Below, piece by piece: positions 1,352-49,784 of a stretch of DNA of 64,000 nucleotides. This DNA is from Neptunomonas japonica DSM 18939 (GTDB lineage Bacteria; Pseudomonadota; Gammaproteobacteria; Pseudomonadales; Balneatricaceae). Below the pieces are notes generated by a model that searched no databases, was not told the origin of the DNA, and was given only the letters and a program-made list of their open reading frames with translations. Each line of letters opens with the position of its first letter. The stretch's first letter is position 1. Location of the stretch: positions 1 through 64,000 of the forward strand of contig NZ_AUGR01000019.1 in assembly GCF_000422765.1 (NCBI RefSeq). The letters are read 5' to 3'. Both the position numbers and the translations under genes were made by a program.

Positions 1352-4300
1352 TTAAAAGCCAATAATATTTGTCAGATTAATATCTAAAGGCACCGAGCTA
1401 CCTTGAACAACAATGGGGCCTGTGCTTGTGTTTCCCATCACAATCGCTTTTCTGGAAAAAGGTTTAAGGTGTAACGAGTCTTGCTCTAATGCTCCAATTA
1501 AATAATTATTGCTGGCATTAATCGTAACGGCGCTAATATCAGCCAGTAAATACTGTTTACCTCCGTCCCCGCTAACTTCACAGTAGTTATCGGCAAACAG
1601 ACAACTCTGAACCTGCTGGCACTGATTAAGCACCACTTCTGTCAGCTGTCCTTTTAAATGATTACCACGAATAATGACCGATGCTGGCAACTGCATTACG
1701 ATTGATACGCTACTGGCTGTAAGCAGATACACCTGTTGAGCCTTTTCTGCGGTAATAAATGAAGCATCAGCCTGATATCGAAATGCTTCTTGCTGTGAAG
1801 ATACATTAAGTGCCTGCCATCTAATAGGTGTAGGCTTTTGGCTGCTATCACCGAGGCGTTCCACATGGTTTCCATCAAATGAAAGGCTATCCAAGGGTGG
1901 AATGATATGCACAGCATTCACTAGAGCCGAGCTGCTGATTCGATCTGGGCCAATCGCATAAAAGCGGTTACCCGCTACTCTAAGCTGCGTTATTGCGCCA
2001 GTACGCAGTGCATCAACACCTAGGCTAGTAATGGCCTGTACTGCCACATTGGAAATAACATTATCTAGGACATCACAACGTGTAATGCGGATCAACTGCA
2101 CTGCCGCAAAAGCTCGTTCTTCACTATGAACCTGTAATCCAAGATGATGACACCGATTCCCTCGTATCAGCATCAATTCAGCACTAGCATCTTCACTCAT
2201 GACCAAAGCGCCAAGGCCAATTTTTTCAATACTGTTATCTGTGATTGTAATGCCTTGCATTCGAGCATTAACCGCCACAGCATTGCCATCTAATAACGAT
2301 AAACTGTTAGCCGTAATACTAACCTGATCAATGGGGTCCGGGCCAAGTCCTTGTTGTAATACAACCCCATGACCACTCTTCTTACCGGCACCACTTATTT
2401 TATTATTTCTGATCGTTAAAGATCCCACACCAGCTCGTATACCATCACCGCTACTAGTTATCGTATTGTCAGTAATAATCATCTGAGAACGCTCTAACAC
2501 TGCTCCCGTGACAACAAGCGCGGCATCACTACCCGCTAGCATTAGATTTGTATCGATATGAGTGTTGCCAAAGTGCAGACTAATTGCATCAAAGCTTATT
2601 GCCCGCTGGCTACAGAACATCAGGTTTTTTTCTATGCAAAGCTCAGCACTCATCACAAAATTGCGCTTTCCCTTACTAACAGTGGCGATGCCACGTTCAG
2701 CAACAATGGCACATTGGCTAATATTTGCACCTAAAACCAAACCTGACAGGCCAATACCGATACTGGTACTACGCTCAACTGCAAGCCCAAGTATGTTGAT
2801 ATGATCAAGGTGTAGATCAACAACATTATGTGCAGCAATTACACTACTAGTACCCGACTTACCCGCCGACGCGATAGCCGTAAAGTTTTCAAGTGTTACA
2901 CCTTTGCAGTCCGCAATTTCCAAAATCTCACCTGGTTCAGTCCCCACCAGCAAAGAAGCCCACCCTTGACCTTTTACTGTCAACGAGCGTGCACCTGTCA
3001 TGCTTAAAGGACGATCGATATTATAAGTACCAATGTCCAAACAGATGGAACCTCCGGTATCTTTGATAGTGTCGATCGCCTGTTGAATAGTTGCTGTGCC
3101 ATTATTATGATTTTCGGCAGTCACACACACCGTACAACTACAATCCTCTCCATCAAGAATAGCGGGCCATAGAGTTCTAAAATCGGTTTCGTTATTAGGA
3201 AAATCAACACGCGCTAATCGTGTAAAGTGATGGTGTACGCCTAACGGAGCAGCCTTATCAAGCAGTTCAATACTGGCATCTGTGCTGCGTGCAGCAAATA
3301 CCCAGTGATCTCCACTTTTAAATTCACCGCCTGAAGGGTATAGGTCTGGGTTTGAGTCTAGATCAAAAGACACCACAATACCGTGCTCAAGAAATATAGC
3401 GCTGGCCGATGGCGGAATAAAGATATCGCCAGCACTGGACGGGCTATTTAAGTTATGAACGTCACTGCCATCTTCACGGCGTACTAAGCCTGATTGATCC
3501 CAACGAACAACCCGCGTATTACGTTTAGCATCTGTGGCATTATTACCGCCCACAGGAAAATGGCTAGAGTCTGCACTACTCGTAGGCTCAGCCGGTAAAG
3601 GCTGATCAAATGTAAGAGTACGGGCAGTCTCATCAACACCACCTCCTGTGCGAATACGACGTAGCTCACCTGGTAAGTTATTCAGCTCACGCCAGTCATC
3701 CGTCACTTCAACCCAATCGCCATCATTAAAACGCAGTAGGTCATCACGACCAATACTCTCTAGCGTGATTCTGTCACGCTCGGAGTTAATATGTGTCACA
3801 CGCGAAGCAACCGTAGCATTATCGCGAGACCATTTAAAAGTGGCGACACCCAAAGGCCCTCCTGTATGCACTTCAACCCGATAGAGTTGATTTTCTAACC
3901 CTCTATACCCGGCATCAGGAGATATCAAACATGGGTTACCTTCCTCTACTGGGGGTGCACTAATTGCCGTTGTTACGCGTCCAGCTGAAGGCGCTATTGC
4001 TTCACGCCAACCGGGAATATCTTCACCTAAGCTATCTCTTGAAATATTACCTACATCTTCCAACACCTTGACTTGCCATACTGTTTGTCGGCGTCCTGTG
4101 GTATCCACACCTATAGCTGATTCAATGAGATCGGGCTGCTGCAATGCGCTCACATCGCGCTGCCACACATCCACATACACTAGATGAGGTCCCCCGCCAG
4201 GTAATGCATCACGATCAAAGCTCGCAGATGGATAAGCACGTCGATAAGGCTGACGAGTAAAATCAACGTTGGCAGTACCGTTCAGTTCTGCTAGTTGTGC

Positions 4301-10984: not shown

Positions 10985-13554
10985 TTTCCTCCGTGCAACT
11001 CTAGTCGCAGCACTCCGTGCTCAGGGAAGTTAGGATTATTATCCAGACGTGCTATTTCCAACGGCCCCAAATCCATATAACCATCGGCTAATGGTTTAAG
11101 ATCTTGCTGACTTTGGCGCTGAAATCGCGTTACTTGCACAGAATCCACACCAGCAACACTCCGGGCTGCCGCATATATCGTACTGAGATAAACAGTTTGG
11201 CCAAAGCTGAAATTATCGGGATGAAACAAACCTAATGTACCGTCGCTGCGCACTGAGCTACTCAGCACATCTAGCAACACCTGGCGAACATTACTGCGAA
11301 AATAATTAACGTTCACACACACCAAGATGTCAATTTCAAGTGACACATGTACCGGATCATTAACGTGTACATCGTGGCCCGCCATGCGATACCTATCTAA
11401 ATGTTCCACTACTGTGGTATCGAAACTACCCTCTTTAACAGAGAATCCTTTGTTTCGATCAACCGTTGTGAACACCGTATGCCAACTACCCGTCCAACGC
11501 AGCCTACTACTGGCTCTTTGAACACCGCCAAGCCGTTCGACAACCTCCGAATAGTCTGCGGGAGTAACTGCTCTCTCTTGTGTACGAAATGCATAGGGAG
11601 CATGCCGTTTAACCTCTTGGCGACTTTCGGGAGCCCGACCTCCACGTGCAGGCAAAAAGTTTGTCACACTTGTGATACGGCCCTCACTGCTGACCAAGTG
11701 CACAATACTGCCCGCCCCCACATTGCCTTGCGGTCCATTACCTATCCGATAATGGGCTGTGAAGACGGTTCCGCTATCCGGGCGCCGGCCATGTACATCA
11801 TCACCAAAGCGTATTTGAGCCGTGCCACCATCTTCACTTTCTAAGACAAAGTGGGTATCGATAGCATCGCTTGATAGCAAATCTCGACGAGCATGCCAGC
11901 TAGACGTTGTATCAATTAGTGTGGCAACCGGCAGTGCATCTTGCGTGCGCCACTCAAATACAGAATGCGCACTAGCCTCTGAGTCAAACAGCACCCACTC
12001 ACTATGGCCAACGCCGAGTTCAGAATAATTTTTTAAACTATGCCCTTGGTATGTAACAGGGCCACTCGCTAAGTGAGGTTGAAAACGTACCGGTAAAGGT
12101 TGTGGTGGTTGGTCATTACACCCGCTCTGTTTTTCAGGGGGGTAATATAAGCGTGAGGCTGGTACTGGCTCAGTAGGGTTATCTGAAATGCTAACGCCGT
12201 GATCTACTAAAACATTGTTACCAAAAGCCAAGCTAACATTTTCAAGTAATGCTCCGCCATGAGCCTCATCACTTTGTGCGGATAAGCACAGTGGAAATGG
12301 CATGGCATCATCTTTATACCAATTGATTTCAGTAATAGGTGAATCATCTAACGGGTCAGTAAGGGGGGCGCCCTCCTTAAAAGCGTTAACATAGCGCAGG
12401 CGCACTGCGTGTCGATTCTGCGGATTGGCATCCTCAACTACACCACTTTGCGCCCCCATCATTTCCCGAAAGATCAGCACACTACCTACTTCTAAATCAG
12501 GCCAATGACCTCGAAGTGTCGCTTGGACTGCACCTACCGGCAAACAACAGCTAGCATCTCCCCACGTATAAAACTCAAACTCATTATGCTCTGACCTAAG
12601 CGTTAAAGAATGCATAGGCTCAAACACTGCTGGATTTGCCTGTAATGCCGTACGCTCCTCAGGAGAACCCGACAACATACGTACCGGCACACTAGGCACA
12701 TGTGTATAGAAGCGAATATCTGCGGGCAACGCAAAAGCGCTCCCCTCATCGACATGAAAATGTAACCATGTTCGAGCATTACACCCCTCATGCATATGAT
12801 AATCCACCAGCAGTGCATGCCTTCTGATGCTCGTACGCCGACGTGCTGTGTGCAAGTATGCTTCGGTGCTGATAGCATCCAGATGATAATGTTGGAAATC
12901 CCCCACATAGGCGATGAGTTCTGCCATCGTACTTGCCATATCTGCCGGGCTGCGATCACGCCACCCCGGCATCTGGCGGCTCAGCCGGTCAATGACAAGA
13001 CGGCGTATGCTAGAAAAATCGCGCGCTAAATAGTTAATATCAGGTGCATTAGTTAGATTCTCAGAACAATCACTTTTGTCTGCACAATCAAAATCGCTAG
13101 GGCACTCAACTTTAAATGTGAAATTGATCGCCGATAAGCGCGGGTCGAAACCGTTTAGCGGCTCATCGTTAACACTGCTTTTAACCAATGTCAGTTGATA
13201 ACCCGAAAAATCACCGCTGCTTCCGGTGCGTATTAAGAGCAAATGATCAGCGTCAGGGAGTGCTGTAAAGAACGCCTGTTCGGCCAGTGAAATATCCGGC
13301 AATGCAGGCGGTTCACTCGCAATAGCGACCCACTCCACCGTGATATGACGAATTCGCTCTCCCCCCTCAATGCGGATATTTTCAACGCTTAACCCGGGAG
13401 GAACAGGTTTTAACAACCGTAGCATTAATGTCTGCTGGCGCGGGCTGCCTGCAGGGGCATCAAGATCCAGAACCTCAAGCCAGTCAATACCATTGAGTGT
13501 TGCATGGGCCTCCACGGCAGCACGTCGGTTCTCTTCACAACAGGTGTAAATCAT
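10981..13554 (-). CDS. Putative baseplate assembly protein (gpJ/gp6 type)
   Basis: This is an 857-residue protein of the 'putative baseplate assembly protein' family found in phage-tail-like particles. Diagnostic segments are DINYLARDFSSIRRLVIDRL and AELIAYVGDFQHYHLDAIS in the first third, then IRFGDDVHGRRPDSGTVFTA, YRIGNGPQGNVGAGSIVHL and FRTQERAVTPADYSEVVERL. The last part (about 740-857) is the small alpha/beta domain with VSLEIDILVCVNVNY. Its start codon overlaps the stop of the gp25-like gene by one base. It is expected to form wedge heterodimers with the next gene product around the hub. Confidence 0.88.
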   Translation of the reverse strand: MIYTCCEENRRAAVEAHATLNGIDWLEVLDLDAPAGSPRQQTLMLRLLKPVPPGLSVENIRIEGGERIRHITVEWVAIASEPPALPDISLAEQAFFTALPDADHLLLIRTGSSGDFSGYQLTLVKSSVNDEPLNGFDPRLSAINFTFKVECPSDFDCADKSDCSENLTNAPDINYLARDFSSIRRLVIDRLSRQMPGWRDRSPADMASTMAELIAYVGDFQHYHLDAISTEAYLHTARRRTSIRRHALLVDYHMHEGCNARTWLHFHVDEGSAFALPADIRFYTHVPSVPVRMLSGSPEERTALQANPAVFEPMHSLTLRSEHNEFEFYTWGDASCCLPVGAVQATLRGHWPDLEVGSVLIFREMMGAQSGVVEDANPQNRHAVRLRYVNAFKEGAPLTDPLDDSPITEINWYKDDAMPFPLCLSAQSDEAHGGALLENVSLAFGNNVLVDHGVSISDNPTEPVPASRLYYPPEKQSGCNDQPPQPLPVRFQPHLASGPVTYQGHSLKNYSELGVGHSEWVLFDSEASAHSVFEWRTQDALPVATLIDTTSSWHARRDLLSSDAIDTHFVLESEDGGTAQIRFGDDVHGRRPDSGTVFTAHYRIGNGPQGNVGAGSIVHLVSSEGRITSVTNFLPARGGRAPESRQEVKRHAPYAFRTQERAVTPADYSEVVERLGGVQRASSRLRWTGSWHTVFTTVDRNKGFSVKEGSFDTTVVEHLDRYRMAGHDVHVNDPVHVSLEIDILVCVNVNYFRSNVRQVLLDVLSSSVRSDGTLGLFHPDNFSFGQTVYLSTIYAAARSVAGVDSVQVTRFQRQSQQDLKPLADGYMDLGPLEIARLDNNPNFPEHGVLRLELHGGK

Positions 13555-36234: not shown

Positions 36235-38258
36235 AACACTGGTTTACCGCCACAGAACTCACAATCATCGAAGGCCTGCCCAGCACCGAGCGAGGCATAA
36301 ACAAACTCGCTGAACGCGAAAGTTGGGAATCTCAAAAACGCACTTTTGGTAAGGGCTATGAATACCACATCAGCAACCTGCCAACCGATGCCCGCAAAGC
36401 ATTAGAAGCGCATGCCGTTGAACAACTATTACCTAGCTTAGCAACAAACGACGTACCAGCCACAACCGATACTGCCCTCACTCAACGCCAGCGCGAAGCC
36501 ACTGATGCACGCACTACGATTGTTCGCACGATTGAAAGCATGAACAAACAAGGCATCACTAAAGAAGCCGCTATGACGACTTTATTGTCACAAGCCGCCA
36601 TGGGTGCGTTAGAAGATAGCAGCCCCGTGTTAGACAAAGCCTTACGTATGGCAAAAGACACACGCGGCAGAGGCGACAACCCTTACCCCAGCGTACGCAC
36701 ACTTAAACGTTGGTTATCGCCCACCACTAAAACACTCGCCCCTAAAGGCAAACGTGAGCTAGTGATACCTGACTGGGCCGCGACTTTTATGGCCTGCTAT
36801 CAGCGACCTGAAAAGCCCAGTGTTGAACATGCTTACCGTGAGTTTGAAAAGCAGTGGCCCGATAACACGCCCAGTGTACATGCCGTTCGCCGCTTGCTTA
36901 AAAAGGTCGGTAACGTCAGCCGCGAACAAGGCCGTATGGGTGCGCGTGAGATCAAAAACCTCATGCCCTTTGTACGTCGTACTTTTGAGCAACTGGTACC
37001 GGCAGATATCTACACCGCCGATGGTCATACCTTTGATGCTGAAGTCTCTCACCCGCGCCACGGTCGCCCGTTTCGCCCTGAGATCACCACCTTTATTGAT
37101 ATCGCTTCGCGTAAAGCCGTTGGTTATTCCGTTGATTTAGCCGAGAGCGGTATTGCTGTATTGGATGCCTTAATCGATAGCTGCACCCACGCCGTACCCG
37201 CCATGCTGTATGTCGATAACGGCTCCGGTTATTGCAACGCCTTATTAAAAGACGAGGCGATTGGCGTACTGGCCCGTTTAGGCACCGATATTCGTCACTC
37301 ACTGCCTTACAACTCTCAGGCTCGCGGCGTTATCGAGCGTGTCCATCAAACCCTTTGGATTGATGGTGCTAAATCCATTGCCGGATACATCGGTAAAGAC
37401 ATGGACCGCGAAGCCGCCCAGCTGCAACACAAGCTCAGCCGTAAAGCGATTAAAGAGAGTGGTAAAACCCACCTCTTAGGGTGGGAGAACTTTATCGACT
37501 TTTGTGAAGACCGCATGGACTTCTACAACACCAAACCACATGCCTCACTGCCCAAGATTACCGACACAGCCGGTAAACGCCGTCACATGTCACCCAACGA
37601 GAACTGGGCCATGCATCAAAGCAAAGGCTGGGAAGCGCACCTATTAACTCAAGACCAAGCCGCTGATGTGTTTCGCCCACGCGTTACCCGCAAAGTTCTG
37701 CGCGGTGAGATCCGTCTACTCAATAACCGCTACTTCAGCCGTGAGCTAGAAGAGTTTCATGGAGACAGCGTGCAAGTGGCCTTTGATTTTCGTGATGCAC
37801 AGTACATCTGGGTATATGACCAAGAACAAGGCCGCTTGATCTGTAAAGCCGAGTGGAACGCCAATACCGCTCACTACATGCCGATGAGTTACATCATGCA
37901 GGCCCGTGAAAAACGCGCTGATGCACGCCTAAAACGCGTTGAAGTGAAGATCGACGAGATAGAAGCCGAACGTCGCGGCAGCTATGCCCTTGATCAAAAC
38001 ACACCCACGTTTATACCAGGCATAGGCAACGTTCACGACATACAAACGCGTATCAAAGCTAAGCAACAGCCCGAGGTTATCGAAATAGGAGTAAACGGCC
38101 TACGGATGCCAGAACAGATGACGCCAGACGAGCGCCTGCAAACCTATCAAGCCTATGAGAGCGGCACAACGGTACCGGAAGAACATCGGCGCTGGGTAAC
38201 AACCTACCCGCGCTCGAAAGAATACAAATCGCTAACACAAAGATTCGCAGAATTTTGA
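36231..38258 (+). CDS. A: MuA-like DDE transposase
   Basis: The start at 36231 (MKHWFTATELTIIEGLPST) overlaps the previous stop as ATGA, with GGAGG upstream. The 675-residue product is close to Mu A in length. An N-terminal winged-helix DNA-binding region is followed by a domain with a DDE triad: Asp264 in YTADGH, Asp329 in YVDNGSG and Glu369 in GVIERVHQTLW. A Mu A beta-barrel domain (about 470-580) and a helical C terminus follow. Mu A binds the phage ends, cuts and joins DNA in replicative transposition. Operon partners downstream are MuB-like and other early genes. Confidence 0.95.
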   Translation: MKHWFTATELTIIEGLPSTERGINKLAERESWESQKRTFGKGYEYHISNLPTDARKALEAHAVEQLLPSLATNDVPATTDTALTQRQREATDARTTIVRTIESMNKQGITKEAAMTTLLSQAAMGALEDSSPVLDKALRMAKDTRGRGDNPYPSVRTLKRWLSPTTKTLAPKGKRELVIPDWAATFMACYQRPEKPSVEHAYREFEKQWPDNTPSVHAVRRLLKKVGNVSREQGRMGAREIKNLMPFVRRTFEQLVPADIYTADGHTFDAEVSHPRHGRPFRPEITTFIDIASRKAVGYSVDLAESGIAVLDALIDSCTHAVPAMLYVDNGSGYCNALLKDEAIGVLARLGTDIRHSLPYNSQARGVIERVHQTLWIDGAKSIAGYIGKDMDREAAQLQHKLSRKAIKESGKTHLLGWENFIDFCEDRMDFYNTKPHASLPKITDTAGKRRHMSPNENWAMHQSKGWEAHLLTQDQAADVFRPRVTRKVLRGEIRLLNNRYFSRELEEFHGDSVQVAFDFRDAQYIWVYDQEQGRLICKAEWNANTAHYMPMSYIMQAREKRADARLKRVEVKIDEIEAERRGSYALDQNTPTFIPGIGNVHDIQTRIKAKQQPEVIEIGVNGLRMPEQMTPDERLQTYQAYESGTTVPEEHRRWVTTYPRSKEYKSLTQRFAEF

Positions 38259-41487: not shown

Positions 41488-41916
41488 ATGACTGTAAAAC
41501 GCGACACCCCGCCAGCTAAAAACAACCGCAAGGCCATCACCGCCCGCATCCATATCGCAAAAAAAGAGTTGGGGCTGGATGACGAAACCTACCGCGCTAT
41601 GCTCAGCCAAGTAACCAAACACAACAGCTGCGCCAACATGCATATTAGTGACCTGTATAGAGTCATGGAGCACTTAAAAAACCTGGGCTACAAACCCGCT
41701 GCGCGTAAGTTTGGTAAACGCCCTAACCCACCCAAAGATAAAGCAGCCCTCATGGGAAAAGTAGAAGCATTACTGGCAAATAGAAAACTGCACTGGAACT
41801 ATGCGCATGCTATGGCGCAAAGGATGTTTAAAGTTGAAAAAGTAGATTGGCTAGATCGGGATCAGTTATGGAGGCTAGTAGCATCACTACAGAAACACGC
41901 ACACAAAAGCCATTAA
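41488..41916 (+). CDS. gemA: GemA-like (DUF1018) protein
   Basis: This 142-residue protein has the family pattern RIHIAKKELGLDDETYRAML, HISDLYRVMEHLKNLGYKPA and a C-terminal HWNYAHAMAQRMFKVEKVDW LDRDQLWRLVASL. In Mu, GemA modulates host gene expression late in the early phase. AAAAGGA lies upstream of the start. Unlike in Mu, it is separated from the early genes by a 500-bp gap with hairpins. Confidence 0.85.
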   Translation: MTVKRDTPPAKNNRKAITARIHIAKKELGLDDETYRAMLSQVTKHNSCANMHISDLYRVMEHLKNLGYKPAARKFGKRPNPPKDKAALMGKVEALLANRKLHWNYAHAMAQRMFKVEKVDWLDRDQLWRLVASLQKHAHKSH

Positions 41917-42059
41917 ACAATGAAGTTGTGCACAGGATCAGTTCTATTTTTCGTCAGGAGCAGCCGGTTATTATATCAAAGATAGCTGATATACAAGCCA
42001 TAATTTACCTAAGGTAACTAATTGGCATACTTTGGCTAAACAGTTGACTTGCTAGAGCA

Positions 42060-42668
42060 TTATTTTATTAGAATAAATTCAAGTGTACCTAAAAATTTTT
42101 TTGGATAGTTAAACTCACTCTCTCCTCTAGCATCAGCAATGGAATCCCCCAATTTTCCATGAAATTCAATCTGATATAAACCAGCCTCGGTCACTTCCAC
42201 AGCATACTGCAAATATTTCACCTGGCCTGCTAAAAGACTTGATGCACCAACAAAACCATATGCAGACTTCTCTTCATTTATTCCAGGAATCACTTTTACT
42301 TCAGTATGGATCCGATTTTTAAAATCGGATATCACACCATTTTTCATAACCACCTTTGCAACCCTAAGTGATTCCTTAGCTATGCCAATTTGGGCGTTCA
42401 AATTCCCTTTATTCTCAACTTCAATATAAACTATAATAAACCAAGCTTTGCGAGTTTCATCCTTCTTGACAGAATAATCCATAGATGTGATTATTATAGG
42501 CCTCTGAATTAACTCATTATTTAATTTCTGTAACTGCGCTTCAGCATTTTGAATTTCTAATCGAGCATCGAATATATAATATGTCCATAGCCCGCCTATG
42601 CAAAAATCCACGGTCATTACGATATTTCTTATCGTCTCTGAAATATTTTTTTTGTCTTCTAGTGTCAT
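42060..42668 (-). CDS. Membrane-anchored hypothetical protein (accessory gene)
   Basis: This is a 202-residue protein encoded opposite to the phage operons. One membrane segment lies near the N terminus (about 13-33, NIVMTVDFCIGGLWTYYIF), followed by a helix and a beta-rich soluble domain (IIITSMDYSVKKDETRKAWF, VYIEVENKGNLNAQIGIA). Its coding DNA is visibly more AT-rich than the phage genes. It starts the accessory zone between GemA and Mor. The function is unknown, and a lysogenic conversion gene is likely. Confidence 0.7.
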   Translation of the reverse strand: MTLEDKKNISETIRNIVMTVDFCIGGLWTYYIFDARLEIQNAEAQLQKLNNELIQRPIIITSMDYSVKKDETRKAWFIIVYIEVENKGNLNAQIGIAKESLRVAKVVMKNGVISDFKNRIHTEVKVIPGINEEKSAYGFVGASSLLAGQVKYLQYAVEVTEAGLYQIEFHGKLGDSIADARGESEFNYPKKFLGTLEFILIK

Positions 42669-42957
42669 ATAAAAACCATTCGCGCCGTAACCCTAACGCC
42701 ATGCTCCCCAGTAAATAAGGAGTAAAGCTAGTAGTTTATGCATGTGGAGCACTTTAGTAGTGCTGACAATCTGCTCGACTTAAAAATGCACCAATGACAC
42801 GCCCCATTGATACTTCCCTAGCAAAATACCAAACACACAAAGCAGTTTCAAGCTAGTATTTACAGATTATAATATCACCGCATACAAGTGTTGTGATAAG
42901 AGTAAAAGCTAATTGCTTTACATGCTGTCACGTTTAATTTATTTCAGGAGATATTCA

Positions 42958-43134
42958 ATGAATAGCGACAACGAAGAAAAAAAAACTTGCTACAGAGCTT
43001 ATTGCATTAGTCATGATTGGGAGGGAATGTCTCAGCATGAAGAGAAAGATGCAATAAAAGATTTAGAAAGCCATAAAAATGATCCTTCTAAGGGCCCTCA
43101 TGAAAACACTGGAATTACATCGTACGAATGCTAA
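42958..43134 (+). CDS. Small charged hypothetical protein (58 aa)
   Basis: The ATG at 42958 has AGGAG 8 bp upstream. The 58-residue product is rich in Glu, Lys and Asp (MNSDNEEKKTCYRAYCISHD) and has four cysteines. No hydrophobic segment is present. It lies in the AT-rich accessory zone, just before a mobile-element-like hairpin. No family is recognised. Confidence 0.6.
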   Translation: MNSDNEEKKTCYRAYCISHDWEGMSQHEEKDAIKDLESHKNDPSKGPHENTGITSYEC

Positions 43135-43155
43135 TTCATATCCCTCAGCATAAAA

Positions 43156-43214
43156 GGGGACGGAGGTATTTAAAAATGTACAAGTGTTGGTTAAAAAACA
43201 ATACCTCCGTCCTC
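43156..43214. repeat. Inverted-repeat element, MITE-like hairpin
   Basis: GGGGACGGAGGTATT (43156-43170) and AATACCTCCGTCCTC (43200-43214) pair over 15 bp with one mismatch. A 29-nt AT-rich loop separates them. The GGGGACGGAGGTATTTAAAA type of arm is reminiscent of short palindromic elements mobilised by IS200/Y1-type transposases. No transposase gene is in the window and I cannot see the copy number. Confidence 0.6.
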
Positions 43215-43322
43215 ATTATTTCTACAACAAGGGAATAATTTTGACATTTAATTTATATAAAAAGAAATCATCATGTCGTTTAAAGGCATAAGAATAAATG
43301 TTTAAATTAACAAGGAGTCTCT

Positions 43323-44525
43323 ATGAGAGATATTCGAATATTCTTCGGCTACAACTTTTTGTTATTGCTGCTAACTCTAACAAGCTGCCAAGTCTATGCA
43401 GATATAAAAGCGGACATTTTTGCTAAAGCTCGTATTGAACTGCTTCAGAACAGAATTGATTCACTTAAGGAACAAATAAAGTGCAAAAACGATTACCCAG
43501 AAAATTATAAGCAGCAAACTAACTGCATGAAAAAGCTCGCCGATACTTATATGAATATTAAACTCCCTGCATCTTTAGGAGATAAATTGGCGAAGCTAAT
43601 CAAGCCTGATGTGGGAAAAATTACAACCCAGTGTATAAATGAGTTAGGAGATGCAGCACTTCCAGCTGAAATTTCAAACTGCAAAGGAAAAACAGTTGGT
43701 AAATTTTTCCAAACAGTAGCTTTAATAAGATCTGGCACCGTCCCAGAATCATACTTTGATCCTGAATACTCGGAAAATGCAAATACAGATTTAACAAACC
43801 AGATGGGCGTTTTACAAAAACAGGTTGAATCCTTTCAAGAACGCCTTAGGCAGAAGGCCCTAGTCTTGTTCACGGACATGGAGTGTGAAGCTAGTGAACA
43901 AACGGATGCGTGGAAACGTAGGCCGGATTGCCAACATCGATATAACCTCGAAGCACCTGTAGGCTATCAATATTGCAAGTCAATCAGCGAGACAGGTAAA
44001 GGAAGCCGACCTAATAAAGACAATGCAGTAAAACTTACATGGGAATATATCTATTTTGACGATGTCGCTTTTAATGATGGTACGAAAAAAGTGAAAGGTC
44101 GATACGTCGTTACACATGCTACTGGTGGACCTTGGTATGACAAATATTCAGCTGTGTCGCGTGCCCAGGCGGTTATCCTTTTCACTAACATAAATTCTAG
44201 TAGATCTGGACTTATGAGTATCGGTTGTTATACCCCTCCTAAAGCAACCCTGCCTCTACCAGAAGCACCAACACCCGAGTCTTCTCCTTACATGGATATC
44301 AGCATGAATGTGAAGAATAATCCAGATGTTGCGCATACTGGAACTTTAACTATTAGTGCAGAAGGTGTTCCACCTTATTCTATCAATTATCTTGTAGAGG
44401 CATTAAGAGAGGATAAATGGCACGAAGTACTAAAAGGAAACATCAAACTTACTAAGCCCTCCAGCACAACTATACGTGATGTTTATTGGTATAAAGCAGA
44501 AGGATGGCGAGTAAAAAGGCTCTAA
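43323..44525 (+). CDS. Secreted or lipoprotein-type hypothetical protein (accessory gene)
   Basis: This is a 400-residue protein. The N terminus is a signal peptide (FGYNFLLLLLTLTSC), with a lipobox-like LTSC at 20-22 and an alternative signal-peptidase-I site after VYA. The mature part has coiled-coil helices and six or more cysteines in the first half, followed by a beta-rich domain (LTWEYIYFDDVAFNDGTKKV). A Pro-rich segment separates a C-terminal Ig-like part. It ends 50 bp before an attC-like site, so it may itself be the gene of an integron cassette. Function unknown. Confidence 0.72.
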   Translation: MRDIRIFFGYNFLLLLLTLTSCQVYADIKADIFAKARIELLQNRIDSLKEQIKCKNDYPENYKQQTNCMKKLADTYMNIKLPASLGDKLAKLIKPDVGKITTQCINELGDAALPAEISNCKGKTVGKFFQTVALIRSGTVPESYFDPEYSENANTDLTNQMGVLQKQVESFQERLRQKALVLFTDMECEASEQTDAWKRRPDCQHRYNLEAPVGYQYCKSISETGKGSRPNKDNAVKLTWEYIYFDDVAFNDGTKKVKGRYVVTHATGGPWYDKYSAVSRAQAVILFTNINSSRSGLMSIGCYTPPKATLPLPEAPTPESSPYMDISMNVKNNPDVAHTGTLTISAEGVPPYSINYLVEALREDKWHEVLKGNIKLTKPSSTTIRDVYWYKAEGWRVKRL

Positions 44526-44573
44526 ATTAAGATGCATGCACTGCACTTTGTGACGCTACATTCTAGCAATCTC

Positions 44574-44666
44574 ACATAACAAGGCAAATCCACTTGGACT
44601 GCCAAAAGCCGCGCCGCTCGTTCCTCGCTTTGCAGCTTTTGGCATACAGTGATTTACGGCGTTAGC
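44574..44666 (+). other. attC-like recombination site 1 (integron cassette site)
   Basis: The site starts with CATAAC (44575-44580) and ends with GTTAG (44661-44665), the R''/R' core pattern. Between them the two sides pair: TGCCAAAAGC (44600-44609) with GCTTTTGGCA (44635-44644), and AAATC (44586-44590) with GATTT (44651-44655). Unpaired bases offset the arms, as in attC hairpins. The crossover G^TT would be at 44661/44662. No integrase gene is in the window. Confidence 0.7.
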
Positions 44667-44680
44667 GAAAGGGGAATAAT

Positions 44681-44926
44681 ATGAAGAAAAAGCTAGATGC
44701 ACTATCTCCAATTGGAGATCCCATAATTTTAGACAAGCATTACACTCAAGTAATAACCTATATGTACCCTGGCCCTCTACCTTGCACATCCGGAATACAG
44801 ACAGGGTGTTCTGATATAGTTAATGCTGGAGATATATTAGGAATTGGTTCATTTTGCGATTATGCAGTAGTTTGTGCTGGATTAACTGTAACAATTTTCT
44901 ATAACCGCTTTTTACTTGGAACTTAA
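44681..44926 (+). CDS. Small hypothetical protein (cassette gene 2a)
   Basis: This 81-residue protein is encoded 19 bp after the crossover position of attC site 1, with AGGGG upstream of the ATG. It contains four cysteines and short hydrophobic stretches (YAVVCAGLTVTIFYNRFLL). A short PAAR-like feel (DIVNAGDILGIGSFC) is present but not enough to call a family. It shares a cassette-like unit with the next gene. Confidence 0.6.
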   Translation: MKKKLDALSPIGDPIILDKHYTQVITYMYPGPLPCTSGIQTGCSDIVNAGDILGIGSFCDYAVVCAGLTVTIFYNRFLLGT

Positions 44927-44944
44927 ATAAATTTTGGAGTTATA

Positions 44945-45292
44945 ATGAAAAAAAATATTTTTATAGCAATACCATTTATCATGTTTACAGTTAGCGCCTC
45001 ACTCTCCTATGCTGCATCACCTAGCCGAGGAATAGGTTCGCCAGTAGTTCCCGTTGATAAATCCACTGGTTCTCTTAAAAAAGGAAAACCTGCGGTAATT
45101 TTGAAGAAATTACCAGTATCAACAACTGTTCATTACGATAAGTTCGGGCAGGTAAAAAGCACAACTACAGAGTATAAATGGAAACCACAAATTCCAGAAA
45201 AAGGGAAACCTGCAATTATCCTGAAAAAATTACCTGTTAGTGAAACAGTAAAAAATGGAAAAGTAATAAAGAGAACGTACGAGCATCGCTAA
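44945..45292 (+). CDS. Secreted repeat protein (cassette gene 2b)
   Basis: This is a 115-residue protein with a signal peptide (IFIAIPFIMFTVSASLSYA, cleavage after YA). The mature part has two copies of KGKPAVILKKLPVSTTV (second copy KGKPAIILKKLPVSETV), separated by a Lys/Thr-rich linker. The stop codon TAA is part of the R'' sequence of the next attC-like site, as in many integron cassettes. Function unknown. Confidence 0.7.
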   Translation: MKKNIFIAIPFIMFTVSASLSYAASPSRGIGSPVVPVDKSTGSLKKGKPAVILKKLPVSTTVHYDKFGQVKSTTTEYKWKPQIPEKGKPAIILKKLPVSETVKNGKVIKRTYEHR

Positions 45293-45376
45293 TGTGCCGT
45301 TTTTGTGTATTGGCTTCGCCAATTCTTACACAAAAACGTCCCACCATTTCACGCAGCTTACTTAGGCGTTAGTTGC
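45286..45376 (+). other. attC-like recombination site 2
   Basis: R'' TCGCTAA (45286-45292) is the exact complement of the cassette start TTAGCGA (44662-44668), as expected for a cassette whose ends come from one circular site. The central hairpin is perfect: CGTTTTTGTGT (45298-45308) with ACACAAAAACG (45328-45338), topped by TTGGC/GCCAA. R' GCGTTAG lies at 45366-45372, with crossover G^TT at 45368/45369. Confidence 0.75.
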
Positions 45377-45390
45377 TAATGGAGTAAGTT

Positions 45391-45948
45391 ATGGAAACTA
45401 AAGATATATTAATGTTAATAATTGGAGCTTATGGTGCAATTTTATCAACATTTTTGCTTGTTAAGGGGTTATTAAGTAACCGTCCAAGTTTAACCTTTAT
45501 ACATGAATTTGGTTCAAATGAAGATGGGTTTTATATTGAAATTATAGCGACTAACTCTAGTGATAAGCCAATAGATTTAGTCTCATTAAGTTATTTTTTG
45601 GGAGCATCTAAAGCTGAGCGAGAAGTATTATCAGGACATACAGTTTCTCTTGAGCCTCAAAAAAGTCATAAATTTAGAGTTTCACTAAACAAAGAAGTTG
45701 AATTGACTTTATTGATTGAAGAGTTTCTCTTCAAAACGTCACAAGGCAAAGAATTACCGTATAAATTAAATCGTTCAATTTTTGAGGATTTAAGAATGTA
45801 CATATTCCTGAGAGACACACCTGAAATATTTTTAGCACTTGAAAAGCTTAATAAACTTCATACTGAAATCGAAGTTCAATCAGAAAAAGGGCTGAAGGAA
45901 GCTGATAATCTCATTAAGCAATTCGAATCAATTGGAGAAAGCAACTAA
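45391..45948 (+). CDS. Membrane-anchored hypothetical protein (cassette gene 3)
   Basis: This 185-residue protein starts 22 bp after the crossover of attC site 2, with GGAG upstream. One hydrophobic segment (about 6-28, LMLIIGAYGAILSTFLLVKG) is followed by a beta-rich soluble domain and a helical C terminus. GCAACTAACGC at 45941-45951 overlaps its stop codon and is the exact reverse complement of GCGTTAGTTGC at 45366-45376, which flanks the gene upstream. This is the cassette-end signature. The protein itself has no known motif. Confidence 0.7.
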   Translation: METKDILMLIIGAYGAILSTFLLVKGLLSNRPSLTFIHEFGSNEDGFYIEIIATNSSDKPIDLVSLSYFLGASKAEREVLSGHTVSLEPQKSHKFRVSLNKEVELTLLIEEFLFKTSQGKELPYKLNRSIFEDLRMYIFLRDTPEIFLALEKLNKLHTEIEVQSEKGLKEADNLIKQFESIGESN

Positions 45949-45960
45949 CGCGGCGTTGTG
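45941..45960 (+). other. Degenerate attC-like site 3 (collapsed)
   Basis: GCAACTAACGC is followed directly by GGCGTTGTGC. It holds an R''-like and an R'-like core (AACGC/GCGTT) with almost nothing between them, instead of the usual 50-120-bp stem. I infer a deleted attC that closes the cassette group, or the recombination point with phage DNA. Confidence 0.45.
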
Positions 45961-46003
45961 CCCTATTCGATATACCTATTAGAAAGACGCCACATATATA
46001 AAA

Positions 46004-46222
46004 ATGAGAATATCTAAAAAGAACCAACTAAAACTGAAAACCACTGCACTGCTATTAGTGACATTGTTTTTAATGATAGTAGGGGCAGATTATGTCGCCG
46101 ACTATTTTGGCGGCAGTGGTCATGTCCCTGAATGGGCTTACTACCTATCTATGATATCTTTTGCAATACCAGTCTCTTATGCCGCTAGTGCTTGTGTAAA
46201 AGCGTTTGACGATAATGATTGA
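46004..46222 (+). CDS. Small two-segment membrane protein
   Basis: This is a 72-residue protein with two hydrophobic segments (about 14-32, LLLVTLFLMIVGADYV, and 44-62, YLSMISFAIPVSYAASACV). A Lys-rich N terminus points to an inside-first topology. It lies after the collapsed attC-like site, before the Mor gene. No Shine-Dalgarno is obvious. A holin-like role is conceivable because of its place and length, but the sequence does not prove it. Confidence 0.55.
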   Translation: MRISKKNQLKLKTTALLLVTLFLMIVGADYVADYFGGSGHVPEWAYYLSMISFAIPVSYAASACVKAFDDND

Positions 46223-46352: not shown

Positions 46353-46805
46353 ATGACAACTCAAATCGCTCAATTACAAAGCTTGCTGCCTGCTTCTATC
46401 CATGAAGTGGCAACAGTCATTGGCATGCCTGCGACATTGCGGCTGGTCGAGCGTTTTGGGGGTACTACCCTGCCACTCCCCACCGGTGCTAACCGAAATG
46501 GCCGCATTTATTTACGTGCGCTCGCTAAACAGATTGGCGATGATGATGCACAAAAACTAGCTCACCACTGTGCCGGTGAACCACTCTATATCCCCCGATG
46601 TGATGCCGCCTTACGACGCATCCGAGACTTAAGTATTTGTGATCAATTTGATGTCATTGTGCGTGAAGGAATAACAGCCAATAAGGCCGTCGTGAAGCTA
46701 GCTCTAGAATATAAACTTACAGATCGCTGGATATGGTCTATCCTTCAGAAAAAGGCATTACATTCTTTCAACCAACCCAGTTTAGAATTGGACCTCTTTT
46801 CTTAA
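46353..46805 (+). CDS. Mor family middle/late transcription activator
   Basis: This 150-residue protein matches the Mor/C activator family of Mu-like phages: a helical N-terminal part (LPASIHEVATVIGMPATLRL VERFGG), a beta strip with GRIYLRALAKQIGDDDAQKL and a C-terminal helix-turn-helix with GITANKAVVKLALEYKLTDR. Mor activates the middle or late promoters. In this element it is followed by a small protein and then by accessory genes, not by a lysis cassette. Confidence 0.87.
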   Translation: MTTQIAQLQSLLPASIHEVATVIGMPATLRLVERFGGTTLPLPTGANRNGRIYLRALAKQIGDDDAQKLAHHCAGEPLYIPRCDAALRRIRDLSICDQFDVIVREGITANKAVVKLALEYKLTDRWIWSILQKKALHSFNQPSLELDLFS

Positions 46806-46831
46806 ATACCAGCATTTTGCACGGAGGCAAT

Positions 46832-47173
46832 ATGTTTAAAGTAATCACATCAGATGATCATACGCACCACTTCCGCTATAACCCTCAAAACCAAATGCTC
46901 AGCGTTAACCACAAAGCCAAGCAACGCAAAGGCGTACCCATCGATAAAATCCTCCACGGCCAACATCTACATTTAAGAGACACCATCTTCCCGTTCTGGG
47001 GTAATAACGAAGCAGGCGTTAGCACCGGCCCAGGCACAGAAGCTTATGCGGCTACCCAGCAACTTGGTGCTGAAGAAAGAAACATCGAAGCACGGCGCTT
47101 CTTAGGATTAAGTGCAGAGGATGAAACAGAGGTAATCGAGATCATGAACCAGTTTTTAACTGACGGCGTGTAA
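46832..47173 (+). CDS. Small phage protein downstream of Mor
   Basis: The ATG at 46832 has GGAGG 6 bp upstream; longer in-frame starts lie inside the Mor gene. The 113-residue product (MFKVITSDDHTHHFRYNPQN, later QLGAEERNIEARRFLGLSAE) is soluble and mixed alpha/beta, with no known motif. It belongs to the phage and precedes the KAP module. Confidence 0.7.
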   Translation: MFKVITSDDHTHHFRYNPQNQMLSVNHKAKQRKGVPIDKILHGQHLHLRDTIFPFWGNNEAGVSTGPGTEAYAATQQLGAEERNIEARRFLGLSAEDETEVIEIMNQFLTDGV

Positions 47174-47301: not shown

Positions 47302-48675
47302 ATGAAGTATCATATCCCGGATGATTACGCTGTTTTTGAAGAGTATGGTTTTAATAACAACAACGATACCTTTAAACGAAAAGAAGTTGCAGATAGCCTT
47401 ACTAGCATCATTAGTAATTCAGACGACTCGCTTGTTATTAGTTTGGATGCTCCGTGGGGCGAAGGAAAAACAGCCTTTCTTCATATGTGGCAGAAAACAT
47501 TAAAAGACCAACATATTCCAGTAATCTATTTTGATGCTTTCAAAAATGATCATCATCAAGACCCATTCCCACCACTTTCAAGCGCTATATATGAACTTGC
47601 AAAAGAAAACCAACTATCAGGTGATGAAACTGCGAAGGCTTTCGCAGAAGGTGTTGGTAAGTTTCTAAAATCAGGAGTGATAGTTGGTTCTAAAGCTCTG
47701 ACTAGAATGGCTGCTCACCAACTATTTGGCGAGCCAGGGTTTGAAGGCATCGCAGAAGGTTTGTCTGATGACATATCAAATGAAATTGTGATTGGTGAAA
47801 AGTTCCTCAATTCCTATACAAACCAAGAAGCTACTATGCAAGCTTTTAATAAGTCACTGACAGTACTTGCTCGAGATCTATTAGATGAAAGCACAGTAGA
47901 AGGAGCTCCTACAGCTTCAAAAAACATTATTTTCATTATTGATGAACTAGACCGCTGCAGACCAGATTATGCTCTCGCTCTTATTGAATTAATAAAGCAT
48001 GTATTTTCTGCACAAGGGGTTTGTTTTGTATTGTCCATGAATAAACCCCAACTAGCTGAGTCTTTGAAGGTGATTTATGGAGCAGGTTTTGACTCACTTA
48101 CGTACTTAGATAAATTTATTCACATAACTACATCTCTACCGAAAGTCGGTGCTGATCAAGAAAAGCAGATATTTGTAGTTGATTACATAACCAATGCAGC
48201 TGCCAGCGCAGGCATAGAGCTCTACACTAACGATATAGATTTATTTAGACACTATTTCCATGCTTTAAACCTACCGTTAAGAGTAATGAACAAGTCAATA
48301 ATCAATTTCGGAATATATAACACGGTCAAAAAACACGAAATACTAAGGCATCCATCCGTTATTAAGATAACAATTGGCCTGTGTGTGCTGAAAGCTTATA
48401 AGCCAGATGTCTTTGAATACCTTAGTAATTTGCCTTTAACAAAAGAGTCTTCTGCATATGAGTTTTGCAAAGATAAACTTCCTCACTCTTTCTTTAGTGA
48501 CAAAGCAGGGAAAGATTGGCAACAAATTCTTAATGGGCCAAATAAACCCAGCCCATTAAGCCCTGATGGAAAAAGTAGAGCCGCATCATGGAGCAACTTG
48601 AACCCAGAGTGGTCGAGCTATAACAAAATGATTTATGACATATGCAGACCACTTAAATACTTTAATGTAGCCTAA
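47302..48675 (+). CDS. KAP family P-loop NTPase (accessory, candidate defence gene)
   Basis: This 457-residue protein has Walker A APWGEGKT (50-57) and Walker B IIFIIDELDRCRPDYA (209-224), followed by an LSMNKPQLAESLKVIYG sensor segment and FDSLTYLDKFIH. This order is typical of KAP NTPases (Kidins220/ARMS and PifA family). No membrane segment is inserted between the Walker motifs. PifA-type KAP proteins exclude phages, and KAP proteins recur in phage-borne defence loci. It lies in the position of Mu lysis or packaging genes and is probably a cargo gene. Defence is inference. Confidence 0.85.
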   Translation: MKYHIPDDYAVFEEYGFNNNNDTFKRKEVADSLTSIISNSDDSLVISLDAPWGEGKTAFLHMWQKTLKDQHIPVIYFDAFKNDHHQDPFPPLSSAIYELAKENQLSGDETAKAFAEGVGKFLKSGVIVGSKALTRMAAHQLFGEPGFEGIAEGLSDDISNEIVIGEKFLNSYTNQEATMQAFNKSLTVLARDLLDESTVEGAPTASKNIIFIIDELDRCRPDYALALIELIKHVFSAQGVCFVLSMNKPQLAESLKVIYGAGFDSLTYLDKFIHITTSLPKVGADQEKQIFVVDYITNAAASAGIELYTNDIDLFRHYFHALNLPLRVMNKSIINFGIYNTVKKHEILRHPSVIKITIGLCVLKAYKPDVFEYLSNLPLTKESSAYEFCKDKLPHSFFSDKAGKDWQQILNGPNKPSPLSPDGKSRAASWSNLNPEWSSYNKMIYDICRPLKYFNVA

Positions 48676-48803
48676 CCCCCTTGCTCCTTAACGTCACCCC
48701 TGCTCTTTTACAAGACTGCAGAAAATATTTTTCAGAGAAACTTACATCTGATAAAAACCTAAGGGGCTTAAAATGCACATCATATTTTTTTTTGAGAAAA
48801 AAG

Positions 48804-49784
48804 ATGCCTGAAGATAACAATATAAATCATTTAGATAACCCTCTAAGTGCTTGGAAGTTTCTGAAATCACCTAGTAGCTATAAATTTTTCAACTTGGGAA
48901 AAAGTATACTAGCATCGTGGGTAGGACTAATTACGGTTGTCACTTTAGTTATTTCCGCAATATTCACGATTACTGTTATACAATCAGTTTCATTAACAAG
49001 TGGTCACGTATCTACAATTGGAGATTTTATTTCTGGAATAGCAGGTGCTCTAGCATTTCTTTGGCTTGTTCACGGCTATCGAATGCAAAGAGTAGAGCTG
49101 CAACTACAAAGAAAAGAATTAGAATTACAGAGACACGCTCTAAACAACCAAGTAACTGAATTAAAGCAAATGTCTAAATTTGCCTCTTATGAACAAATAA
49201 ACAATTTACTTATAGATGCTAAAAAAGATATTCCTCTCGACACAGACATACATACTTCATTATCCGAATTGAAACGCATTCTCGCAAGTGAGCCTGTTAA
49301 ACAGCAATTAGAGGCACAGTCTATCTTTGGACTTCCATATGAAAAGTTCGACGCCCAATATATTGACCAGCTCAATACAGATGTCTTTGAAAAATACGTA
49401 CCGTTAGAAAAGTACTTTTCAAAGCTGAAAATGGCTATATCTGTATGTGTCTCTGCTGAACAAATTGATGATAACTCTAATTCAAATAATGATCTAAACA
49501 ATGACGTTCTTCCCGTTATCAATAAGCACCCGTTTCTCAAAGAGTACTCAAATAGCTATTCAGAGTGGTTATCATTCGAACGTGAGTACACAGGCTTGTT
49601 GTCTGCAGTTAAGCTGGTTAGTTCATGTTCTACTTTTTTAGGTGATAGGCCTTATTGGAATGAAAAACAGATCGCCGAAATGGAAAATAAAATCAGCACT
49701 CTAGTCCCGTTGATAGCGGAAGCTCGCTTACCAAGTCCCGAAATCATTTCTGTAGCTATAGAAGCTATTAAAAAACCTGAATAA
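48804..49784 (+). CDS. Two-segment membrane protein with coiled coil, partner of the KAP NTPase
   Basis: The ATG at 48804 (MPEDNNINHL) is preceded by a GAGAAAAAAG stretch; an upstream TTG (48681) could add 41 residues. The 326-residue product has two membrane segments (about 35-60, WVGLITVVTLVISAIFTITV, and 72-88, IAGALAFLWLVHG), then a coiled coil (QLQRKELELQRHALNNQVTE) and a helical soluble domain. It lies 128 bp after the KAP gene on the same strand. A KAP ATPase with a membrane partner resembles membrane-acting defence pairs. The role is inferred. Confidence 0.72.
   Translation: MPEDNNINHLDNPLSAWKFLKSPSSYKFFNLGKSILASWVGLITVVTLVISAIFTITVIQSVSLTSGHVSTIGDFISGIAGALAFLWLVHGYRMQRVELQLQRKELELQRHALNNQVTELKQMSKFASYEQINNLLIDAKKDIPLDTDIHTSLSELKRILASEPVKQQLEAQSIFGLPYEKFDAQYIDQLNTDVFEKYVPLEKYFSKLKMAISVCVSAEQIDDNSNSNNDLNNDVLPVINKHPFLKEYSNSYSEWLSFEREYTGLLSAVKLVSSCSTFLGDRPYWNEKQIAEMENKISTLVPLIAEARLPSPEIISVAIEAIKKPE

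Follow-up and report, generated by a model that had tools for sequence, protein, structure and literature searches.

A defective Mu-like prophage of Neptunomonas japonica very probably carries the remnant of an integron cassette array, which comprises a cassette 1 without a start, followed by cassettes 2 and 3, and of whose attC sites the first is intact, the second degenerate and the third collapsed. The prophage lies in the 64-kb stretch of DNA analysed here (the window), part of contig 16 of a genome assembly that has 39 contigs and 4.39 Mb. Unless the array finds a carrier, integron cassettes move only inside one cell. Insertion of a Mu-like phage is almost random, and the phage packages all the DNA within it, so that cassettes in its cargo gap could reach new places and new hosts.

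The integron integrase, IntI, recombines the folded bottom strand of an attC site with attI, another attC or a secondary site. We searched for such sites with a covariance model (R1) of 35 attC sites from integrons of the same genus and the same family, the window being left out. The integron loci around the integrases of family relatives had given 38 candidates in a structural scan, three of which were mis-ended or false and were dropped; in the alignment of the 35 remaining sites, 10 of the 16 pairs have changes on both sides (RNAalifold). A scan demanding 6 of 7 R''-R' pairs misses the first site of the window, and a looser one was used instead, since the R'' and R' of a single site come from two cassettes. 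With filters off, attC 1 (44575-44667, plus strand) reached 31.6 bits (E 2.2e-7), the top score in the 64-kb window, where the runner-up had 13.9 bits. On the bottom strand its R arms are paired, its spacers unpaired and its L arms paired with offset bases, above a 13-bp stem. The fold energy is ordinary (z –1.42; 16 of 200 shuffles are as stable). attC 1 is a genuine attC of the host family's own type.

The initial annotation described two attC sites with paired arms, R''/R' cores and offset bases, both of which an attC covariance model should recognize. This is true of site 1 in score as well as in fold and does not extend to site 2 (45284-45376, plus strand), which forms a strong hairpin (z –4.85) with unpaired R and L arms and fails with R1 (7.0 bits, E 10, span 45236-45374). 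Its R' is kept and its R'' reads CTAAT, not CTAAC, one base off, so that at best it is a degenerate attC. Site 3 (45940-45961, plus strand) is a collapsed attC, as had been claimed: no hairpin appears on folding, and its R'' AGCAACTAAC (45940-45949) is joined directly to GCGGCG|TTGTGC. Taken over R''/R', L''/L' arm pairing, offset bases, hairpin and model score, site 1 has the whole attC anatomy and sites 2 and 3 do not. An Rfam search of the whole window returned nothing at the cassette region and one tRNA only, and the DNA of sites 1 and 2 has no match elsewhere in its own genome.

In a circular cassette the terminal R'' is complementary to the cassette start. Cassette 3 (45369-45955, plus strand) shows this as an exact 10-nt match between its ends (45368 / 45940), a length that 1 of the 229 GTTA sites in the window reaches. 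The ends of cassette 2 (44662-45368, plus strand) match over 7 nt (44662 / 45286), which is weak: 14% of 1140 TTA sites equal it, and taken alone the match is near chance. Matching ends, first put forward as decisive for both cassettes, hold for cassette 3 and are not decisive for cassette 2; the 11-nt inverted pair also claimed is real and measures 12 nt. The R'' of cassette 1 predicts a start that does not occur in the 4.4 kb upstream, even allowing one mismatch, and so this cassette is truncated or rearranged. How often the rule holds was assessed on 44 chosen R1 matches, from which 4 without a readable TAAC were removed. An exact 9-nt start lies upstream in 24 of the remaining 40, against 2.49 expected after swapping the R''; attC 1 of the window belongs to the other 16. 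The integron-type nature of the cassettes, as initially annotated, is borne out by the model match of attC 1 and by the ends of cassette 3.

The same two observations bear on the view that these are ordinary phage cargo genes with hairpins resembling attC. Such a view draws on site 2, a strong hairpin without arms, and on the cassette ORFs, which are without known relatives elsewhere in the genomes searched. It has to contend with the 10-nt end match of cassette 3 and with a site 1 that is matched by the model of the family's own attC sites, when a control of 1.25 Mb of IMG/VR sequence (the best 80 of 562 gemA relatives) gave R1 no match at E < 0.01 and a single one at E 0.28. We regard it as very improbable.

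Truncated cassette 1 holds a 400-aa ORF with a signal-like N-terminus (43323-44525, plus strand); cassette 2 holds ORFs of 81 aa (44681-44926) and 115 aa (44945-45292, signal-like N-terminus), and cassette 3 one of 185 aa (45391-45948) with a membrane-like N-terminus. On the opposite strand lies a 202-aa ORF (42060-42668, minus strand), whose start is preceded by GTTAGGG (minus strand, 42697-42691). This may mark where a reversed, decayed cassette begins; R1 gives a non-significant 7.5 bits there (42691-42761, E 7.1). Searches of Pfam (E 0.1) and PADLOC (E 0.01) assign no family to the 202-, 400-, 81- and 115-aa ORFs; the 185-aa ORF has a weak RuvB_C match (E 0.039) and otherwise no Pfam or PADLOC family. 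Among 116 family genomes, the ORFs of 202, 58, 400, 81, 115 and 185 aa have no relative besides the window, bar one weak match (30% identity, E 8e-4, locus L094) that spans the 400/81 junction of the joined query. The sole further match in 369 class genomes is to the 202-aa ORF (26% identity, E 5.8e-6). The 185-aa ORF had zero matches in the search of genome contigs, the 400-aa ORF found just the same prophage in IMG/VR and none among plasmids, and the insert DNA has zero matches among phages. These searches revealed no integron elsewhere with relatives of the cassette ORFs, and hence no donor array. The insert also contains an inverted repeat, GGGGACGGAGGTATT / AATACCTCCGTCCTC, 29 nt apart (43153-43217), which we take to resemble repeats linked to REP-type transposases.

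The location in a Mu-like prophage, also part of the initial annotation, is confirmed by Pfam matches to Mu-transpos_C, GemA, Mor, Mu-like_Pro and Mu-like_gpT. The Mu-type transposase A gene (36255-38258, plus strand; phrog_310, E 1.2e-167; Pfam Mu-transpos_C and HTH_Tnp_Mu_1) has a product that shares 47% identity with the transposase of Pseudomonas phage MP42. The left phage flank of the cargo gap is the gene of GemA (41488-41916, plus strand; Pfam GemA, E 4e-25), with relatives in Neptunomonas sp. OB1 and N. antarctica. On the right, the insert is followed by a 72-aa phage gene (46004-46222, plus strand) and by the gene of the late transcription activator Mor (46353-46805, plus strand; Pfam Mor, E 4.4e-17; phrog_836, E 9.5e-38). 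DNA similarity to related prophages stops at 41909 and resumes at 46000, running on to 46736 at 78.7%, and an interrupted homologue of the 72-aa gene, 89% identical, stands beside mor in Neptunomonas sp. OB1 (G076:C40). By this comparison the insert would span about 41917-45999, from GemA to the 72-aa gene; the 42.0-46.2 kb given at first were too long on the right, where 46004-46222 is a phage gene. GC content is 36.9% in the insert versus 50.0% in the early genes, which supports a foreign composition.

The gemA-mor gap, 4436 bp in the window, measures 682, 669 and 3903 bp in three related prophages, of which one belongs to the same genome. Since these hold other genes there, the gap is a variable cargo locus. 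The initial annotation had proposed a comparison with prophages lacking the insert; an exact empty target site was found in none of the related prophages compared. A second low-GC cargo block (36.9%) lies in the same prophage ahead of the protease gene (47302-49784). It encodes a KAP-type NTPase (Pfam, E 8.3e-39; PADLOC PDC-S20, E 1.2e-77) and a 326-aa protein without an assigned family, and R1 finds no attC in it.

Behind mor, about 7.8 kb are missing in comparison with a sister prophage on contig 2 of the same genome (BLAST). In the sister this stretch holds the endolysin, small and large terminase, portal and minor head genes, and the deletion has joined the 3' part of a neck protein gene directly behind mor (46733-47173, plus strand; phrog_26, profile positions 145-228 of 321; BLAST against the contig 2 prophage). 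The window prophage does not have the lysis and packaging genes of a complete phage, and because it has lost lysis, terminase and portal genes relative to its sister we call it defective.

There is no integron integrase in the window, as had been noted, and the 8 integrase-model matches of the genome are all on other contigs. One end of contig 8 encodes an intact IntI, which scores 384.9 bits (cut-off 265) and shares 98% identity with that of Neptunomonas sp. OB1 (G076); two IntI fragments occur in other places. Contig 30 probably continues contig 8, since the 70 bp left of its first cassette are identical to the site beside that near-identical integrase. An intact enzyme encoded outside the prophage means that host IntI could act in trans. 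When 150 of 1004 first-look candidates of the genome were scored, at least 11 R1 matches at E < 1e-4 were obtained, the one in the window included, on contigs 4, 5, 7, 8, 11, 16, 23 and 30, with further matches beside them. A host that carries many cassettes at several places makes a cassette in a prophage less surprising. Matches to a simple pattern in a second Mu-like prophage and in a repeat-rich gene were taken as chance; the third such match (C7:32421) is weak with R1 (17.1 bits, E 0.49 for the genome). With one R1-positive site and no integrase nearby, the window holds a SALIN, defined in the accessible text of PMC12690207 as one attC without a nearby integron integrase. It does not hold a CALIN, for which at least two attC away from an integrase are needed, as just one site passes R1.

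Some isolated cassettes of the same genome have attI-like left flanks, namely L103:5686-5708, L104:5764-5788, L106:6659-6683 and L107:5473-5496 on contigs 23, 7, 11 and 5, respectively. No integrase was detected near these four loci (best tblastn match of five IntI proteins, E 0.75). The L103 flank differs at 2 of 28 bases from a Shewanella-type attI quoted in the available portion of PMC9892861. L104 and L106 have 252 bp at 86.5% in common left of the junction, as if the acceptor site itself had been copied. The integrase of the genome and the two fragments (L011:10100-10419, L013:1-330, L002) abut similar IS-like sequence at contig ends, and by eye a single IS family seems to have disrupted several integrons of the host genome.

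Among 27 gemA loci from genome contigs and 2 from IMG/VR taken together, R1 gave attC matches at E < 0.01 in two; the 80 further IMG/VR loci of the control had none. Few positives mean either that cassettes in Mu-like phages are rare or that the family-specific model misses other attC types. One of the two positive gemA loci is the window's own copy (L111); the other is a prophage of Amphritea atlantica C1R06 (L117) with an attC of 53 bits (E 3.7e-13), which has kept its Mu transposase, GemA, Mor, terminase and portal genes. Between mor and the next late genes it carries a single, complete cassette, which starts at 10201 after TTG|, ends in the attC and shows a 9-nt end match across 2332 bp. 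Its 755-aa ORF matches Pfam DUF87 (E 1.2e-7) and PADLOC HerA (E 2.4e-22). The cassette sits behind an attI-like site, a platform that perhaps arrived together with it. The window shows a worn-out case. Amphritea is a fresher example, whose complete cassette encodes a HerA-type ATPase, and PADLOC lists proteins of this kind under defence. By analogy, the Amphritea prophage supports cassette capture by a phage better than the window does, and from this case in a related genus it seems that integron cassettes can be harboured, and perhaps transported, by transposing viruses.

The array would have arisen in three steps. IntI, either that of the host or a relative, would first have assembled the cassettes, as attC anatomy and the ends of cassette 3 indicate. 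They would then have entered the cargo gap of the Mu-like phage, singly through IntI or as a block, and both prophage and array have since decayed, which is directly visible. If the phage was active after the second step, transposition would have spread the cassettes.

For this second step we slightly favour block capture, in which a piece of an array entered through an aberrant phage event or illegitimate recombination and IntI did not act on the phage DNA. The missing start of cassette 1 is our reason, and we put this route at a little under an even chance. A possible reversed cassette, back to back with the array (R1 not significant), would also fit it, as would the absence from the window of all 8 attI-type tails searched for. 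It is weakened by the Amphritea cassette, which keeps both ends, and cassette 1 may have lost its start later, through decay like that of sites 2 and 3. Alternatively, host IntI may have placed cassettes directly into phage DNA at an attG-like or attI-like site, a route we consider quite possible while leaning against it. Cassette insertion at attG sites was reportedly published by Loot et al. in Nat Microbiol in 2024, and like such insertions the cassettes here lie away from an integron platform in a cell that has an intact IntI. The right edge of the insert, GCGGCG|TT, fits the G|TT junctions that would bound a cassette inserted at attG into otherwise continuous DNA, and the complete cassette in Amphritea is favourable as well. 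Unlike in attG insertion, no intact left junction is preserved in the window, and the Amphritea cassette follows an attI-like platform that was possibly co-transferred.

Independently of the route, the prophage may already have been inactive when the cassettes arrived, in which case the phage never carried them. The loss of about 7.8 kb with the endolysin, terminase, portal and minor head genes speaks for such an order, and in the text available of Qi et al. (PMC9892861) the order of events is called unclear in their cases. The cassette-bearing Amphritea prophage, which retains transposase, terminase and portal genes, speaks against it, and we judge an early inactivation somewhat less likely than a phage still active. 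Capture by a transposable phage, as first suggested, is therefore apt as a description of what the window contains; it does not follow that the phage was active at that time, the prophage being defective now.

Cassettes in phages are already published. According to the accessible part of Qi et al. 2023 (PMC9892861), a survey of 10,705 phage genomes yielded 17 CALINs and 3 complete integrons, besides one integrase that had no cassettes, and in Shewanella the cryptic prophage M16-3 has a CALIN together with an attI of its own. Our case resembles those described there in having attC-bearing cassettes in phage or prophage DNA without an adjoining integrase, and differs from them in its carrier, a transposable Mu-like Neptunomonas prophage, and in its single intact attC. 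In that text 'Mu-like' appears once, in the reference list. The portion available of PMC8541194 gives M16-3 an integrase gene and names MuM16-1 and MuM16-2, not M16-3, as Mu-like. Several attC regions per genome, some without integrase, are described for Alteromonas in the corresponding part of PMC4119200; unlike here, these are chromosomal arrays without a link to a prophage. The window prophage shares a related transposase, GemA and Mor with Mu-like phages of the Pseudomonas MP42/JBD kind, and is unlike them in that its cargo gap holds integron cassettes and its late genes are deleted. Within the literature searched (Mu-like, integron and attC), as far as its texts were accessible, we found no earlier report of a Mu-like phage with integron cassettes.

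The attI-like platform seen in Amphritea is a multi-copy element of 300-400 bp, whose tail is attI-like and promoter-like (..TATTAAA.TG|TTA); one platform junction reads AATAATAAATTG|TTA. It occurs in Amphritea and relatives (L117:9900-10200, L222-L236, L253, L254, L262 and L270), and different cassettes follow it at different loci. In 6 of 8 distinct platform loci with an R1-positive attC, the cassette begins exactly at the platform and its ends match over 8-9 nt. A divergent gene of about 100 aa (MYRRSRKYQ...) lies in the platform and is present in 29 of 116 family genomes with up to 7 matches each, many of them broken. It belongs to no Pfam or NCBIfam family and is absent from the integrase loci examined, most of which have short flanks. 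If such integrase-less platforms are real acceptors, one integrase may load many places of a genome, and they may be a more novel lead than the window itself. One could go further and see in the Mu-like phages of this family of marine bacteria (Neptunomonas, Amphritea) regular cassette vehicles that host integrase loads in trans, partly through these multi-copy platforms, one of which rides in a prophage. Many acceptor sites for cassettes, phage-borne ones among them, would then depend on one integrase; we consider so general a scheme unlikely. Near cassettes of two platform loci (L223:2511-3161 and L224:2369-3172), ORFs look by eye like group II intron reverse transcriptases. In Neptunomonas sp. 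OB1 (L100, on G076:C40), a Mu-like remnant with mor is flanked on both sides by attC matches (3891-4003, 11327-11366, 11877-11963 and 12338-12401; E 4e-4 to 1.5e-11), and a cassette ORF beside phage tail ORFs there has a weak match to an aminoglycoside nucleotidyltransferase family (23 bits, cut-off 21).
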